Shown piece by piece: positions 13,780 through 31,272 of a stretch of DNA of 64,000 bases. Under the pieces are notes generated by a model. That model worked only from the letters and a program-made list of their open reading frames with translations. It did no database searches and was not told the DNA's origin. The position numbers and the translations under genes are program-made. How positions within the stretch are numbered: the first letter of the stretch is position 1; every line of letters starts with the position of its first letter. This DNA is from Caenibius sp. WL (lineage in GTDB: Bacteria > Pseudomonadota > Alphaproteobacteria > Sphingomonadales > Sphingomonadaceae): contig NZ_CP081844.1 of assembly GCF_019803445.1 (NCBI RefSeq), forward strand, positions 2,740,501-2,804,500, in the 5' to 3' direction.

Positions 13780-15414
13780 ATGAAAGAGACCTGGGATTAT
13801 ATCATCGTCGGCGCAGGCTCAGCCGGCTGCGTCATGGCGGAGCGGCTCAGCGCCGATGGCAAGTCCACCGTTCTGGTGCTGGAAGCCGGAGGAGAGAACG
13901 ACAGCTTCTGGGTCACTCTCCCCAAAGGCGTCGCCAAACTGGTCCAGAAACCCGAGCATATGTGGATGTACCCGGTCGCCCAGCCGCGTGAGGAAGGCGG
14001 GCCGCAGAATGAAGTCTGGATTCGCGGCAAGGGTCTTGGCGGTTCGTCCTCCATCAACGGAATGATCTGGAGCCGGGGTGAACTGGCCGACTATGACGCC
14101 TGGGAAAGCGAAGCGGGCGCCGTGGGCTGGAACGGTAAAACGATGACGGCAGCCTTCCTTGAACTGGAAGATCATGCCGCAGGCCCCTCATCACTGCGTG
14201 GCGCTGGCGGCCGGGTCCATGTCGATCCCGCGTGTTACACCTATCCCCTTGCCGACCGCATGATCGAGGCAGGGGAAGCCATCGGCCTCAGGCATGTAGA
14301 CGATCTGAACGGCAGCACCGGCCCGCGCGTCGGCCTGTTCAGCCACAATATCCGCAAGGGGAAACGCGAATCCGCCTCGCGCACCTATCTCGCCGCCGCC
14401 CGCAAGCGTCCGAATGTGGCGGTCGTTACTCACGCCATGGCCGATCGCATCGTGTTCGACGGCACGCGTGCCGTAGCGGTCGAAGCGACAGTGAATGGCC
14501 AGCCACGCCGTTTTCCATGTTCCGGTGAAATCATTATTTCGGCAGGCGCCATGGAAAGCCCGCTGTTGCTGCAACGCTCTGGCATTGGCGATGCACAGCG
14601 CTTGCAGGCTGCCGGCATTCCGGTCGTGGTCCACTCGCCCGATGTTGGCGAACGTATGATCGAACATCTCTCGATTTCCATCCCCTATCGCCTGACAAAG
14701 GGGAGCGGCACGAACAAGAGCTTCTTTGGCATCGGCGCGGCCATGGCGATGCTGCGCTATCTCGTCCGGCACGATGGGATCATGGCCACAGGGCCATTCG
14801 AAGTCGGCGCCTTCCTGAATGTTACCCATCCCGACGGCAGAACGGACGCCCAGCTTTATCTCGGCGGCTATACGTTCAAGATCGAAGACAATAACCCGGT
14901 TCCTCTCGACAAGATCGATCCAAGGCCGGGCATTACCATCTACGGACAGCTCCTGCGCCTCACCAGCGAGAGTTCGATCCGTGCAACGGGGCCCTCGCCG
15001 GCCTCTTTACCGGACATCCGGCACAATTTTCTTTCCACCGAACATGACCGCGCATCTGCCATAGCGCTGATCCGCGCCATGCGTGCGTTCATCGCAGCCC
15101 CACCGCTGGGTGACATGGTAGGGCCCGAAGTCGTCCCCGGCACACAAGTTGAGAGCGATGAAGATATTCTCACCGCATTCCGCAAACTTTCGACGTGTGG
15201 GCTCCACGCAATCCGGTCCTGCCGCATGGGCGGCGATCCCGATGCCGTGGTCGATCCGCGCCTTCGCGTAAACGGTGTTCAGGGCTTGCGGATCGCGGAT
15301 TGTTCCGTGATCCCCTGGCATGTCACCGGCAATACCAATGCCCCTGCCATGGCCATCGGGTTGCGCGGTGCGGACCTTATCCTCCAAGACAGGAACAAGT
15401 CCGGCCAAGCTTAA
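13780..15414 (+). CDS. GMC family FAD oxidoreductase (choline-dehydrogenase type)
   Basis: A 544-residue glucose-methanol-choline oxidoreductase. The N terminus has DYIIVGAGSAGCVMAERL and VLVLEAGG for ADP binding, then GKGLGGSSSINGM (GMC signature 1), ISAGAMESPLLLQRSGIG (signature 2) and a C-terminal HAIRSCRMG ... NTNAPAMAIG block with the catalytic His-region. No signal peptide is seen, so it is cytoplasmic. It oxidises a primary or secondary alcohol and passes electrons to a quinone or oxygen. It lies 80 bp after the SDR and may act on a side-chain or ring hydroxyl in the same pathway. Confidence 0.92.
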   Translation: MKETWDYIIVGAGSAGCVMAERLSADGKSTVLVLEAGGENDSFWVTLPKGVAKLVQKPEHMWMYPVAQPREEGGPQNEVWIRGKGLGGSSSINGMIWSRGELADYDAWESEAGAVGWNGKTMTAAFLELEDHAAGPSSLRGAGGRVHVDPACYTYPLADRMIEAGEAIGLRHVDDLNGSTGPRVGLFSHNIRKGKRESASRTYLAAARKRPNVAVVTHAMADRIVFDGTRAVAVEATVNGQPRRFPCSGEIIISAGAMESPLLLQRSGIGDAQRLQAAGIPVVVHSPDVGERMIEHLSISIPYRLTKGSGTNKSFFGIGAAMAMLRYLVRHDGIMATGPFEVGAFLNVTHPDGRTDAQLYLGGYTFKIEDNNPVPLDKIDPRPGITIYGQLLRLTSESSIRATGPSPASLPDIRHNFLSTEHDRASAIALIRAMRAFIAAPPLGDMVGPEVVPGTQVESDEDILTAFRKLSTCGLHAIRSCRMGGDPDAVVDPRLRVNGVQGLRIADCSVIPWHVTGNTNAPAMAIGLRGADLILQDRNKSGQA

Positions 15415-15511: not shown

Positions 15512-15874
15512 ATGTCGAAGCAAAGCGAATTCGATCCGGTAGCCACATGGCAGAACATGATTTCCCAATGGGAACGGCAACTCAATGAATTGTCGGCCAA
15601 AATCAGTTCCAACGAAGTATTCGCCGGCTCCATGAATCAAGCCACCAAGCTGTCCATGACGACACGCAAGAGCATGGAGAACAATCTCAACCGCCTCGTG
15701 CAATCGATGCAGTTCGCGACCCAAACGCAGATGAGCGAGGCACTCGATCGGCTGGACCATATCGAACAGAAGCTCGACGCTATCGCTGCGGCACTTCCTT
15801 CGAATACCGCGTCATCCAAGCCCTCTCCAGCCCCTCCACGGCGCACACGCAAGCCTGCCGGGCCTGCCGCTTGA
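15512..15874 (+). CDS. phaR: PhaR/PhaE-like PHA synthase accessory subunit
   Basis: A 120-residue protein beginning at ATG 15512 after GAAGAGGT. The N-terminal half (FDPVATWQNMISQWERQL ... EVFAGSMNQATKL) resembles, from memory, the PhaR subunit of Bacillus class IV PHA synthases (FDPMKAWQDM ... QWEGQL). The middle is amphipathic helix and likely coiled coil (DRLDHIEQKLDAIAAAL), and the tail is rich in Ala, Pro, Lys and Arg. It overlaps the start of the PhaC-like gene, the arrangement expected for a synthase heterodimer. PhaE of class III systems is the alternative name. The symbol is given on resemblance, not proof. Confidence 0.65.
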   Translation: MSKQSEFDPVATWQNMISQWERQLNELSAKISSNEVFAGSMNQATKLSMTTRKSMENNLNRLVQSMQFATQTQMSEALDRLDHIEQKLDAIAAALPSNTASSKPSPAPPRRTRKPAGPAA

Positions 15875-16956
15875 CAGGCCAGCCGGATACGGGCGCAACC
15901 GCCTCCATCGGCGATCGGGTACGCCGCGAAGCAGAGCGCGCAATCCAGCGCAATCTCAAGGGTCTGGAGTTTCTCACCGCACCGCGCCAATCGGTCGGCG
16001 CAATGGCAAGCGATCTGCTGATCCGTCGCGGCACGATGGCTTTCTACCGCTATCGCCCCGTTGCCGAAGAAGTTTACCGCGTGCCTCTGCTGATGGTCAC
16101 GCCCCCCAGTAACAAAGGTTACATCTTTGATCTGGCGAACGGGCAGAGCTTCTTCGAATTCATGCTTCATCGCGGCTACGACATTTATCTGCTGGACTGG
16201 ATGCCGCCACGGGCCGACGAGGCCGAACTGGGTATCGAACACTATGTGCTCGATTTCATTGCCCAATGCGCAGAGCATATCGCGGACGAAACGGGTGAAC
16301 GCGAACTGACGATCAGCGGTTATTGCATGGGGGGCACTCTTGCCGTGCTCTATGCCGCGCTGGCCGGGGCAGGCCGTATCGCCAACCTACTTTGCTTCAC
16401 CACACCGATCGATTTTCACCACATGCACCTGTTTCGCGCCTGGGCTGACAAAGCGCATTTCGATGTCGATCAACTCGTTGACGCACTGGGCATCATTCCC
16501 CCTGAACTGATGCTGGGGGCATTCGATCTGATGCGTCCGGCTAATCGAACCGCAGGGATGATGCATCTCTGGGCGAACATGTGGAACGATGACTTCGTCA
16601 AATCCTATCGAATGTTCGACCGCTGGGGCGCCGAAACGCTGCCTATGCCCGGACGGTATTTCCGCCAGATCATCAAACAGTTGCTTTGGGACAATGCCCT
16701 GCTGGAAGGGCGAATGCAGGTCGGTGGGCGGCATGTGGATCTTAGTGCCATCACGGCCCCCATCCTCAGCATCGTTGCCGAACATGATCACGTGGTCGCA
16801 CGCGAAGCGGCCGCGCCCCTTCTGAACATGACTGGATCCCAGGATTGCGAGGAAATTCTGAGCAAAGGCGGCCATGTGAGCGTGGTCGCCGGCGCCAGTG
16901 CGGTGCGGCGCCTGTGGCCTTCGATCGACGAATGGCTCGGCAAAAGGTCGGTATAG
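15871..16956 (+). CDS. phaC: PHA synthase catalytic subunit, class III/IV size
   Basis: A 361-residue alpha/beta hydrolase-fold protein matching class III/IV PHA synthases in length (class I enzymes are near 590). The lipase-like box is GYCMGG with cysteine in the nucleophile place (Cys152); Asp306 in AEHDHV and His335 in GGHVSVV complete the triad. PLLMVTPPSNKGYIFDL and LLDWMPP are further PhaC hallmarks. It starts at a TTG overlapping the stop of the PhaR-like gene (TTGA). It polymerises 3-hydroxyacyl-CoA at the granule surface, and could store acyl-CoA derived from the adjacent catabolic genes. Confidence 0.85.
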   Translation: MTGQPDTGATASIGDRVRREAERAIQRNLKGLEFLTAPRQSVGAMASDLLIRRGTMAFYRYRPVAEEVYRVPLLMVTPPSNKGYIFDLANGQSFFEFMLHRGYDIYLLDWMPPRADEAELGIEHYVLDFIAQCAEHIADETGERELTISGYCMGGTLAVLYAALAGAGRIANLLCFTTPIDFHHMHLFRAWADKAHFDVDQLVDALGIIPPELMLGAFDLMRPANRTAGMMHLWANMWNDDFVKSYRMFDRWGAETLPMPGRYFRQIIKQLLWDNALLEGRMQVGGRHVDLSAITAPILSIVAEHDHVVAREAAAPLLNMTGSQDCEEILSKGGHVSVVAGASAVRRLWPSIDEWLGKRSV

Positions 16957-16958
16957 GG

Positions 16959-17516
16959 ATGACTATGGTGACGACGAACGATCAGGCTTTCGAAGCGCGG
17001 GCCATGACTGCGGACGATGTCCCCGCGATCCTCGCTTTCGCTGCCCGGCTGCCTGTAACCGACTTGCTGTTCCTGCAACGTGATATCCGTGTCGAAAAAG
17101 TTGTGACAGCTTGGGCCAAACAGAACGAGCGCGGACTGATACGCAGCCTGCTGGCGTTTTCCGATGGCCAGCTCATCGGATGTGCCGCCGTCGTTCGCGA
17201 TGCCTTGAGCTGGTCTCCACATGTCGCGGAAATTCGCATTCTGGTGGCGCCTGAAAGCCGCCGTGGCGGCATAGGCAGGCGGCTTGCGCAGGAAGCTTTC
17301 GCACTGGCGCTAACCGACAACACCGAAAAGCTGATCGTGAGCATTGTACCCGAACAAAGGGGGGCCATCGCATTGTTCGAGGAGATGGGCTTCTCTGCGG
17401 AAGCATTGCTGCGCGATCATGTCCGCGATGCGGATGGTGTGAAACACGATATTGCGATTCTGAGCATCGACCTTCTACGCCAAGGCAGCCAGCGCTTGGC
17501 ATACGGGTTGGGCTAA
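16959..17516 (+). CDS. GNAT family N-acetyltransferase
   Basis: A 185-residue GNAT protein with the acetyl-CoA pyrophosphate-binding loop RRGGIGRRL preceded by the strand AEIRILVAPES, and a late segment EQRGAIALFEEMGFSAEALLRDHVRD typical of the fold. The ATG lies 2 bases after the PhaC-like stop, so it belongs to the same operon. The acceptor (small amine, peptide or protein lysine) cannot be told. A role in controlling acyl-CoA flux or the synthase is only a guess from position. Confidence 0.85.
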   Translation: MTMVTTNDQAFEARAMTADDVPAILAFAARLPVTDLLFLQRDIRVEKVVTAWAKQNERGLIRSLLAFSDGQLIGCAAVVRDALSWSPHVAEIRILVAPESRRGGIGRRLAQEAFALALTDNTEKLIVSIVPEQRGAIALFEEMGFSAEALLRDHVRDADGVKHDIAILSIDLLRQGSQRLAYGLG

Positions 17517-17539: not shown

Positions 17540-18331
17540 CTATCCCTCTGAGTGCCTTTCGGGATAAAGGAACGCAAGGGCCCGAGGACGAACGAAACGA
17601 CGCCATGCGTTTTCGGGCTGAGCCAGACGGTCGGCCACGAGGTGCAAAACCGCAGGATTCACGACAAGCCCAAAATGGCTGGAGACCACTTCAATATTCT
17701 CGCTGATTGCGTTTTCCTCGCCGATGCAGTTCTGCCAGGCGGCAATCCCATCAGTGCGGCTGAAAACGGCGGTGGACGGCATGGGAAGCGTTTGACGGCC
17801 ATTCGCGAAACGCTCTCTGGTAGCGGGTGAATCGATGATATTCCCGCTGAGATACTCATAGAGGCCGCGAATGGCATTGGCGCTGGGATCGCCTGCGAAA
17901 GGACTGCCCAGCGTAATGACATTACGCACTTTCCCCGGCATGCGGCGCGCGGCCTCACGCGCAATCACCCCGCCAAGACTCCACCCTACGAGACTCACTT
18001 TACGGCCGCTTTCCTTCCATAGCGCTGCGATACGCCGAACGATTATCTCGCCTTGCTCGCCAACGGTCTTGTGATCGAGATTCCAGCCGAGATCCCAACT
18101 GCGTGCATCGTACCCTCGCTGCGCGAGAAACATGCGCAGCAACCCGGTGGAGTGATCGTTGGTCGCAAATCCGGGCAGGACAAGCACGCTGTGTCCATCA
18201 CCACGAGGTGCTAATGCCAGAACCGGCGCGAGCGTAAACAGCGCCAACGCCTCGAACCCGGCCCGGCACGGCTCAGCCGCCGTTAGCAACCGATGAGGCG
18301 GTTGGGTTGGCTGCATGGTCCCGGAAGGCAT
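17540..18331 (-). CDS. Alpha/beta hydrolase (lipase/esterase-like)
   Basis: A 263-residue hydrolase starting at ATG 18331, chosen for the GGGGGAG ribosome site 8 bases upstream. HSVLVLPGFATNDHST forms the oxyanion-hole region, GWSLGG carries the nucleophile serine, and a late Asp (SRTDGI) and His (SSHFGL) complete a plausible triad. A lid-like insertion follows TLGSPFAGDPSANA, as in bacterial lipases. It is convergent with the PHA operon and lies downstream of a TonB receptor gene on the minus strand. A role in ester cleavage or PHA turnover is possible but unproven. Confidence 0.8.
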   Translation of the reverse strand: MPSGTMQPTQPPHRLLTAAEPCRAGFEALALFTLAPVLALAPRGDGHSVLVLPGFATNDHSTGLLRMFLAQRGYDARSWDLGWNLDHKTVGEQGEIIVRRIAALWKESGRKVSLVGWSLGGVIAREAARRMPGKVRNVITLGSPFAGDPSANAIRGLYEYLSGNIIDSPATRERFANGRQTLPMPSTAVFSRTDGIAAWQNCIGEENAISENIEVVSSHFGLVVNPAVLHLVADRLAQPENAWRRFVRPRALAFLYPERHSEG

Positions 18332-18555
18332 TTCGCAGTCTCCCCCACCCACCGAAAAATCACTGCTCATAGGCAGGAAATACGTGAGAATGAGGAGTGG
18401 CACACTCCAAAATACCGCGACCTATTATAAACATCAGGCCCGGAAACCGGGTTATCGGGCATTTTCCGCTCCTCGCTCGATAGATTTTCTCCATTCTGCA
18501 GCGGTGGAAGAAGCCAGCCCGACACTCCGGCATCACGCCTCGCAGACCAGCGAGT

Positions 18556-28720: not shown

Positions 28721-30838
28721 TTAAGTTCTCCCCGCCTCATCCTTCACCGCTGCACGGAACCGATGCAGCAGCGGTTCGGTATAGCCGTTGGGCTGTTCGA
28801 GCCCTTCGAAAATCAACGCCCGCGCGGCCTGGAACGCCATACTGTCATTCGGAGCGAGCGCCATCGGGCGATAGAGCGGATCGCCAGCATTCTGCTGATC
28901 CACTTTCTCCGCCATCTTGAGCAAGGCCGCTTCCACCGCAGGGGCATCCACCACCCCGTGCAGCAGCCAGTTGGCGATATGCTGCGAGGAAATGCGCAGC
29001 GTGGCACGATCTTCCATCAGGCCGATATCGTGAATGTCGGGCACTTTGGAACATCCCACGCCTTGATCGACCCAGCGCACGACGTAGCCCAGAATGCCTT
29101 GTGCGTTGTTTTCCAGTTCGTCACGGATTTCCTCGGCCGACCAGTTGACGCCATTGGCGACCGGAACGGTCAGGAGCTTGTCCAGCGGTGCCACCGGTTC
29201 CGCGCTGCGTTCCGCCTGCCGGGCGAAGACATCGACCAGATGATAATGAGTGGCATGCAGCGTGGCCGCCGTTGGGCTGGGCACCCACGCGGTGTTGGCC
29301 CCGCTCTGCGGATGGCCAATCTTCTGATCCAGCATATCGGCCATCCGATCCGGAGCGGCCCACATGCCCTTGCCGATCTGCGCCTTGCCCGAAAGGCCGC
29401 AGGCCAGCCCGATCTGGACGTTGCGATCTTCATAGGCCGCGATCCAGTCGCTGCTTTTCATCGCACCCTTGCGCAGCATCGGCCCGGCACGCATCGAGGT
29501 GTGCATCTCATCCCCCGTGCGGTCGAGGAAGCCTGTGTTGATGAACACGATGCGATCCTTCACTTGCGCGATGCAAGCTGCCAGATTGGCCGATGTACGC
29601 CGTTCTTCATCCATCACACCGACCTTGATCGTGTGCCGGGAGAGACCCAGCAGGTCTTCGATGGCATCGAACAGACGGTTGGTGAAGCCGGCTTCGTCCG
29701 GCCCGTGCATCTTGGGTTTGACGATGTAGATCGAACCGGCGCGGCTGTTGATCAGGCCCCCCTGCCGCTGAAGATCGTGCAGACCGATCAGACTGGTCAC
29801 GATCCCATCAAGAATGCCTTCGGGCGCTTCGCCGCCATCGGGCAACAGCACGGCGGGCGTGGTCATCAGATGGCCGACATTGCGGACGAACATCAGGCTG
29901 CGGCCGGGCAGGACCAGTTCCGACCCATCAAGCGCGATGTAGCGGCGATCCTGTTCCAGCCTGCGCGTCATGACGCGGCCATTCTTTTCGAACGAGGCTT
30001 CCAATTCGCCGCGCATGATGCCCAGCCAGTTGGCGTAGGCTTCCACCTTGTCCTGCGCATCCACGGCGGCGACGGAATCTTCCAGATCGGCAATCGTGGT
30101 CAGCGCTGATTCCAGCACGATATCCGCGATCCCCGCCGGATCGTCCTTGCCGATGGGATGGCTGCGGTCGATCACCAGTTCGATATGGAGACCATTGTGG
30201 CGCAGCAGCAGATTGTCACCTGCGCGCGCGATCAGGCATGCCGGATCAGCCAGTTGCGGCAATCCGTCATTCGTCCAGTCGGTCCAGCTTCCCGCGGCGA
30301 GAGGCACGGCCCGGTCGAGGAAATGCTTTGCCCAGGCGATCACCTGCGCGCCGCGCTGCGGATCGTAGCCCTTGCCCGCTGGCGCGCCAGGCACGGCGTC
30401 CGTGCCATAGAGTGCGTCATAGAGGCTACCCCAGCGCGCATTGGCGGCATTGAGCAGGAAGCGGGCATTGAGGATCGGCACGACAAGCTGCGGCCCGGCG
30501 CTGGTGGCGATTTCGGCATCGACCTTGTCCGGGGCAATGGCGAAGGGCGCAGGCTCATCTACCAGATAGCCGATCTCTTTCAGGAACGCCTGATAAACAT
30601 CCTGCGCAATCGGCTTGCCCGCGTGGGAGAGATGCCAGGCATCGATCTGGGCCTGAATATCGTCACGCTTTTTCAGCAGTGCGGCATTTTCAGGCCCGAA
30701 GCGCCGATATATGTCCGCCACGCCCTGCCAGAAGGCATCCGGATCGATACCGGTGCCGGGAATGGCCCGATCTTCCAGAAAGCTGGCGAGCGAAGCGGCG
30801 ACTTTCAGCCCCGCGCGATCGAGGTAGGTTTCCGTCAT
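28721..30838 (-). CDS. glcB: Malate synthase G
   Basis: A 705-residue protein of the single-chain malate synthase G type, slightly shorter than the usual 723. It condenses glyoxylate and acetyl-CoA to malate. Matching segments include [41 protein letters not shown] with the catalytic acidic residues, [21 protein letters not shown], and [16 protein letters not shown] 30838 was preferred because AGGA lies 9 bases before it; ATG 30844, overlapping the previous stop, is an alternative. It ends the glycolate operon, so glyoxylate made by GlcDEF passes straight to malate. Confidence 0.96.
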
Positions 30839-30843
30839 CGTCA

Positions 30844-31272
30844 TCAATCCTGCGCCTTGAGGCCCGCTGCCGCGATCCCAGCCAGCGCGCATGCTTCGTC
30901 ATTGTCGGACGTATCGCCGGTGATCCCCACCGCGCCCATGGGCATGCCGCCAGCGTCGACGACAATCACCCCGCCCGCCGCCGGGACCACGCCATGCGGT
31001 GCAATCGGTCCCAGCGATGCCACGAACGAGGGCCGTTCTGCCGCCATTTCGCCGATCTTGCGGCTGGATACGCCGAGGCCCAGCGCACCTCCCGCCTTTG
31101 CGCAGGCGATCTGCGGGCGCAGGGTCGATCCGCCATCCTGCCGCTGGAACGCGATCAGGTGGCCGCCCGCGTCCATCACCGCCACGGTCAGTGGCTTGAG
31201 ACCGAGTTCCTTCCCTTTCGCGAAGGCCGCGCCTATCAGCGTGTTGGCTTGCTCAAGCGAAATAGAGGTCAA
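30844..31272 (-). CDS. glcG: GlcG/HbpS-like heme-degrading-domain protein
   Basis: A 142-residue GlcG/DUF336 family protein: [19 protein letters not shown] near the middle, [39 protein letters not shown] at the end. It starts at TTG 31272, which overlaps the glcF stop (TTGA) and follows AAAGGAAA. GlcG sits in glycolate operons of many bacteria and HbpS relatives bind heme; its job in glycolate use is not established. Its place between glcF and glcB supports the name. Confidence 0.88.

Follow-up and report, generated by a model that had tools for sequence, protein, structure and literature searches.

The window, that is, the whole 64,000-nt stretch of Caenibius sp. WL DNA that was analysed, carries a small PhaR-like gene followed by a PhaC-like gene, a GNAT acetyltransferase gene and a gene for a lipase-like hydrolase (Table 1). 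The two ORFs of the PhaR-PhaC pair, proposed in an earlier reading made without database searches (hereafter, the sequence-only reading), were both confirmed at their positions and lengths. They overlap by 4 bases, a possible start of the GNAT ORF lies 2 bases downstream of the PhaC stop, and the hydrolase gene, whose conserved part covers approximately 17540-18325, is convergent and located beyond GNAT. Neither the GNAT ORF nor the hydrolase gene had been named in the sequence-only reading. In comparison with the nearest orthologue, the PhaC ORF showed 38, 22 and 151 differences at codon positions 1, 2 and 3, respectively (361 codons), and the small ORF showed 24, 13 and 60 (116 codons), with third codon positions holding most of the differences in both ORFs. 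The triad residues named in the same reading, Cys152, Asp306 and His335, were exact and aligned with C152, D307 and H336 of Priestia megaterium PhaC.

Table 1 Features of the PhaR-PhaC-GNAT locus in the window
Feature	Position	Strand	Remarks
GMC-family FAD alcohol oxidoreductase, upstream of the module	13780..15414	+	
Small subunit, PhaR-like, 120 aa, ATG start	15512..15874	+	DPxxxW motif at the start, a coiled region and a basic tail (RTRKP)
PhaC-like catalytic subunit, 361 aa, TTG start	15871..16956	+	Triad C152/D306/H335
GNAT acetyltransferase, 185 aa if read from the ATG 2 bases past the PhaC stop	16959..17516	+	Pfam PF00583, 4.1e-14
Alpha/beta serine hydrolase, lipase-like	17540..18403	-	GWSLGG motif, conserved Asp and His; start uncertain

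Close orthologues (47-86% identity) were found in 8 further genomes, which places the family in 9 of the 98 relatives searched, own genome included; across the class, it was found in 5 of 385 genomes, again including the own one (E 1e-70). A scan of genome contigs, from which the best 80 of 556 relatives were taken, yielded by title 44 Bradyrhizobium, 8 Sphingomonadaceae, 3 Erythrobacteraceae, 7 Comamonadaceae, 3 Afipia, 3 Eremiobacterota/WPS-2 and 12 others, and Variovorax was among the relatives. The 80 contigs, the 8 relatives and Novosphingobium aromaticivorans together make up 89 family loci (88 distinct, because L036 and L052 are one place), and counts over these loci are therefore weighted to Bradyrhizobium. 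The module is indeed present in a sphingomonad, as had been stressed from the sequence, but it is no oddity there: with 44 of the best 80 of 556 relatives titled Bradyrhizobium, and with Afipia, Variovorax and Eremiobacterota MAG relatives, a sphingomonad-specific curiosity was ruled out, and the family is widespread though patchy. One contig titled Frankia sp. RB7 (L113) holds a Bradyrhizobium-like copy of the module, with a GNAT 92% identical to that of Bradyrhizobium, and this assembly is probably mislabelled or contaminated.

Genes for the GMC oxidoreductase, an SDR, a SnoaL-like protein and a TonB receptor lie upstream of the module, and the wider surroundings look catabolic (GMC oxidoreductase, SDRs, SnoaL, TonB receptors and FAD oxidoreductase). 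In the 25 NCBIfam families shown, the upstream SDR did not pass the cut-off of any PHB-specific one, and the SDR, GMC and SnoaL neighbours are too generic for the substrate to be read from them. Nothing observed spoke for or against the unusual acyl-CoA substrates suggested in the sequence-only reading. A GMC homologue occurs near the module in 4 of the 89 family loci (L035, L043, L044 and L122; 67-76% identity), and another, at 38%, in L036/L052. The Croceicoccus bisphenolivorans locus (L049) has the PhaC module and genes for SnoaL (74%) and SDR (82%) in common with the window, which suggests a common catabolic cluster. Farther along the window, a malate synthase G-type protein (PF01274 and PF20658) is encoded at 28721-30892 on the minus strand.

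The first NCBIfam match to PhaC was the class III synthase model TIGR01836 (277.8 bits, 1.2e-82), followed by class I (140.6) and class II (79); the score stays below the curated class III cut-off of 365.3 bits. Among sequences of the Protein Data Bank, PHA synthases were the best 5 of the 10 matched by PhaC. An AlphaFold2 model computed with nine sequences had a mean pLDDT of 72.2, with four stretches under 50, and was compared with known folds. Ranks 1-7 were all PHA synthases (Z 30.0-35.1, rmsd 2.2-3.4, 288-296 residues aligned), and gastric and lysosomal lipases came after them with Z at most 26.9, so that PhaC has a predicted PHA synthase fold. The Cys-Asp-His triad was kept in 33 of 33 family PhaC rows. 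Of 17 columns that are invariant in 23 class I, III and IV reference rows, the window PhaC keeps 14 and differs in 3. It was 33.6% identical to P. megaterium PhaC; mean identities were 29.3-32.1% for three groups of class III, and class I gave 23.0%.

The small subunit was harder to place from the window copy alone, which matched the PhaR model TIGR02132 weakly (16 bits, E 0.0085, residues 1-94 to 1-94; cut-off 148.4), as one among other weak coiled-coil matches. When nine family partners were scanned at E up to 1, TIGR02132 matched all nine (best 3.7e-9), the granule protein model TIGR01837 seven (best 2.9e-6) and the PhaE model TIGR01834 of NCBIfam five (best 6.3e-5); over the same nine, the Pfam models Phasin PF05597 and PHA_synth_III_E PF09712 matched seven (1.1e-4) and five (9.5e-7), respectively. 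We then built a family profile. Of the 94 sequences collected, two from reference loci fell outside the range of 95-180 aa and were dropped, which left 92. This profile matched P. megaterium PhaR at 66.7 bits (E 2.7e-19), collinearly from profile positions 1-99 to residues 1-100, whereas the two best of nine PhaE proteins reached 36.6 and 35.4 bits, both in C-terminal stretches; no shuffled control exceeded 12.5 bits. In profile-profile comparison, the probability was 98% for PhaR and 92, 89 and 50% for gammaproteobacterial, Haloferax and Rhizobium PhaE, respectively. The PhaR-like protein of Priestia filamentosa was absent among the 40 matches listed for the family profile, which weighs against a uniform match to class IV.

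In the opposite direction, P. megaterium PhaR was run by tblastn against 72,556 plasmid records and matched five of them at E up to 10. Two came from Priestia and one from N. aromaticivorans (8e-4), and the other two had E values of 4 and 7. Besides the two Priestia records, the N. aromaticivorans partner was thus the only match below 1e-2. Judged from these comparisons, the small protein is homologous to PhaR and is, by profile, nearer to PhaR than to PhaE. The profile similarity to PhaR on which the sequence-only reading depended was therefore found, and its view that the small subunit resembles Bacillus PhaR more than class III PhaE was borne out (66.7 versus at most 36.6 bits).

BLAST found the partner in 87 of the 89 family loci, and the profile added the copy of L101 (88 of 89); in the sole remaining locus, L111, the PhaC ORF starts 105 bases from the contig end. 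Each of the 8 further genomes with orthologues (of 98 searched) encodes a partner of approximately 120 aa directly upstream of PhaC. In N. aromaticivorans pNL2 (L122, 9631-11080), the deposited annotation reads PhaE for the partner and alpha/beta fold hydrolase for PhaC, so a PhaR-PhaC pair is easily overlooked. In P. filamentosa pBEH2 (L123, 3397-4918), PhaC seems split, the PhaC match begins upstream of the annotated start, and the PhaR-like stretch lies within the ORF preceding PhaC. The PhaR regulator and the synthase subunit PhaR are not known to have anything but the name in common. In an Acidisoma genome, a class IV operon was inferred from a PhaR repressor gene, according to a passage of PMC8537097. 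According to PMC9705695, the subunit PhaR is confined to class IV synthases and serves to mark bacteria that include some Bacillus. The occurrence of a PhaR homologue in both Alpha- and Betaproteobacteria would weaken its use as a class IV marker and enlarge the pool of two-part synthases.

The class of the synthase was addressed with trees in which class IV was represented by two rows only, both from Priestia and one partial; likewise, the plasmid tblastn rows listed gave class IV from two Priestia records only. In a quick tree of 76 rows, the family (38 rows, support 100) joined the two Priestia rows (SH-aLRT 98), apart from classes III and I. The support of 98 was not leaned on, because the set included the partial Priestia row, itself on a long branch, along with further long branches that the tool flagged. 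In a careful tree of 57 rows, the order of the family, class IV and class III was not settled; the family formed a clade (94/90), class III formed a clade without the family (99/99), and class I stood apart (100/100). After removal of the partial Priestia row (56 rows), the best grouping was family with class IV, weakly supported at 63/25. Specifically, 627 of 1000 bootstraps joined family and IV, 357 family and III, and 16 III and IV, and the AU test rejected neither family with III (p 0.44) nor III with IV (p 0.27). In this tree, the family was again its own clade (100/100), located outside the class III clade (93/62). From its sequence, PhaC is clearly placed outside class I, and the family is not nested inside class IV. 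Because the partner profile favours PhaR and the PhaC trees reject no alternative, the partner speaks for PhaR, whereas PhaC alone does not decide the class. The designation "class IV-like" thus holds for the small subunit with its PhaR match, but the PhaC trees leave it as one of several groupings. As for a grouping with a known alphaproteobacterial class, the outcome was divided: the family joins Bradyrhizobium sequences, which by gene order would include PhaC4, but its PhaC groups with neither class I nor rhizobial class III.

In our view, the pair is likely a two-subunit PHA synthase with a short PhaC, as in classes III and IV, and belongs to a distinct, mainly proteobacterial clade. It shares with class IV PhaRC of Priestia (Bacillus) megaterium a short PhaC of approximately 360 aa (about 40 kDa), nearly identical triad positions and a PhaR-type partner starting at the DPxxxW motif. 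The triad positions, the PhaR profile match, the tblastn match of P. megaterium PhaR to the N. aromaticivorans partner and the quick tree would also fit a true Bacillus-type class IV PhaRC acquired by proteobacteria, with the same enzyme and role in a different host. We regard such a transfer as improbable, given that the family stood as its own clade in both later trees, with class IV joined to it only at 63/25 once the partial row was removed and neither alternative rejected by the AU test. In addition, P. megaterium PhaC is as near to class III of Haloferax (36.2%) as to the PhaR-PhaC-GNAT family (36.8% on average). Its PhaR has 199 aa rather than 120, the window partner being without the long C-terminal half, and its operon runs phaP-phaQ-phaR-phbB-phaC with no GNAT match, whereas PhaC in the window is followed by GNAT.

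With class III PhaEC of gammaproteobacteria, Rhizobium plasmids and Haloferax, the pair has in common a short PhaC, two subunits and an NLPSR-type segment in the partner. A class III PhaE-PhaC with a shortened PhaE, as the NCBI annotation of the N. aromaticivorans partner implies, would agree with the PhaE models matching five of nine partners, with TIGR01836 as the best family model and with the AU result for a family and class III clade. However, PhaE is longer, carries the NLPSR-type segment towards its C-terminal end and, at full length, aligned with the family profile only over a C-terminal stretch and at well below the PhaR score. Moreover, PhaC fell below the TIGR01836 cut-off, the class III rows formed a separate clade without the family in the trees made, and the class III loci looked at gave no GNAT match. 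We therefore consider a shortened PhaE very improbable. The distinct short-PhaC synthase that we prefer is a known type of enzyme in a little-noticed variant, and its unexpected part is the GNAT linkage.

GNAT was located directly downstream of PhaC on the same strand in all 89 family loci, and the weakest match among them had an E of 9.7e-32. At 1e-15, GNAT matches and the PhaC family were confined to an identical set of 9 among the 98 genomes, with the match adjoining PhaC in every case. No GNAT was found downstream of other PhaC or PhaC-like genes in 70 control loci, many of which had flanks of only 1.5 kb and among which the own class I locus was counted twice (L001 and L033). In a sphingomonad class I locus (L021, 1255-3677, minus strand), the gene immediately preceding PhaC, in the same orientation, encodes a distant GNAT (187 aa, 26-29% identity, E 2e-6). 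This one locus of the 70 controls rules out that GNAT is never near other PhaC genes and hints that the GNAT-PhaC pairing may be wider than the family. Among the papers listed by the literature searches, which only in part targeted GNAT itself, none described a GNAT-linked PhaR-PhaC module.

The presence of GNAT in every family locus examined leads to a specific claim, namely, that a PHA synthase has an acetyltransferase dedicated to it. Given the strict linkage, the first candidate is that GNAT acts directly on the synthase or on what the synthase produces. At a guess, GNAT might acetylate a subunit, so that synthase activity is tuned to the acetyl-CoA supply, or might modify the chain end or the substrate. 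A bolder version, which we hold to be rather unlikely, is that PhaR, PhaC and GNAT constitute a fixed three-part system and a fifth kind of PHA synthase. In it, GNAT would be obligate and would acetylate the synthase or the chain end, setting where or how much polyester is laid down, possibly from catabolic acyl-CoAs and not as bulk PHB storage.

PHA synthases polymerise (R)-3-hydroxyacyl-CoA on a Cys residue. In the window, the PhaR-like protein and PhaC might form a complex in which Cys152 would carry the growing chain and take (R)-3-hydroxyacyl-CoA from the neighbouring catabolic enzymes, while the lipase-like hydrolase may degrade or trim the polyester or its oligomers. A Bradyrhizobium-type phasin was found by BLAST near the module in 50 of the 89 loci; in Bradyrhizobium and its relatives, phasin genes are immediate neighbours of the module, and PF09361 was confirmed on one Bradyrhizobium copy. 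Additionally, a PF09361 phasin adjoins the module hydrolase in two sphingomonads (G006 and G015). This proximity of phasins suggests granules. The own genome also holds a class I PhaC, a phasin next to it and a PhaZ-type depolymerase, and PHA metabolism is therefore likely present. For Caenibius tardaugens, class I-like PhaCs have been reported.

Alternatively, PhaC could be a PhaC-like acyl-CoA enzyme that makes no polymer, for example, a Cys-dependent thioesterase or acyltransferase working in a catabolic cluster with GNAT and the hydrolase. The catabolic-looking neighbourhood and the class I PhaC already present in the genome are consistent with this, as is the description of Bradyrhizobium PhaC4 as seemingly inactive in PHB metabolism (PMC5996035, in part). 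Nevertheless, we consider it unlikely, because the Cys nucleophile and its triad are retained in every family row aligned, a PhaR-type partner accompanies PhaC in all loci but the one at a contig end, and phasin genes stand beside the module in many loci.

The PhaR-PhaC-GNAT family probably includes PhaC4 itself (Blr2885; phbC1 in other papers), to judge from gene order only. The order PhaC-GNAT-phasin in Bradyrhizobium loci fits Blr2885 to Blr2887 of B. diazoefficiens, in which Blr2887 is PhaP5. The Bradyrhizobium loci differ from the window in having no matches to its GMC, SDR and TonB surroundings. According to the portions of the literature consulted, B. diazoefficiens has five PhaC paralogues, of which only PhaC1 is needed for PHB (PMC10888616), and they fall into four classes (PMC6403647, a review). 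PhaC4 is described as truncated and was detected as a protein in the membrane-enriched fraction (PMC5996035, which cites Quelas 2013 for its seeming inactivity), and phaP5 (blr2887) was up-regulated 129-fold in a phaR regulator mutant (PMC6201568). Considering the seeming inactivity of PhaC4 and the need for PhaC1 only, the product of the family may be a different polymer, a small amount of polymer or no polymer at all. The GNAT-linked module is a reason for a second look at Bradyrhizobium PhaC4.

The hydrolase is less closely tied to the module. It was found in 69 of the 89 family loci (58 on the same strand; within 1.5 kb in 20) and not found in 20, 14 of which had at least 5.9 kb of downstream room. 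Hydrolase matches at E 1e-15 also occurred in 50 of the 98 relatives, and an obligate partnership was ruled out on both counts. Seven stretches around such matches were fetched, extending 7-8 kb where no PhaC matched. In three of them (G079, G083 and G096, all sphingomonad-order genomes), a class I PhaC lay approximately 2.4-2.7 kb from the hydrolase relative; in G023, the distance was 6.8 kb and the relative stood beside a WS/DGAT gene; no PhaC matched within 7-8 kb in G000, G002 and G036. Ser116 (in GWSLGG), Asp192 and His217 were invariant in 14 hydrolase sequences. The best fold matches of the hydrolase model (pLDDT 88.0) were general lipases and esterases (Z up to 19.4), and PHB depolymerase was not among the 50 fold matches listed. 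In L197 (8149-10567), a hydrolase relative adjoins the gene of a WS/DGAT neutral-lipid synthase, and in the own genome (L199) another relative is located between FGE-sulfatase and radical SAM genes.
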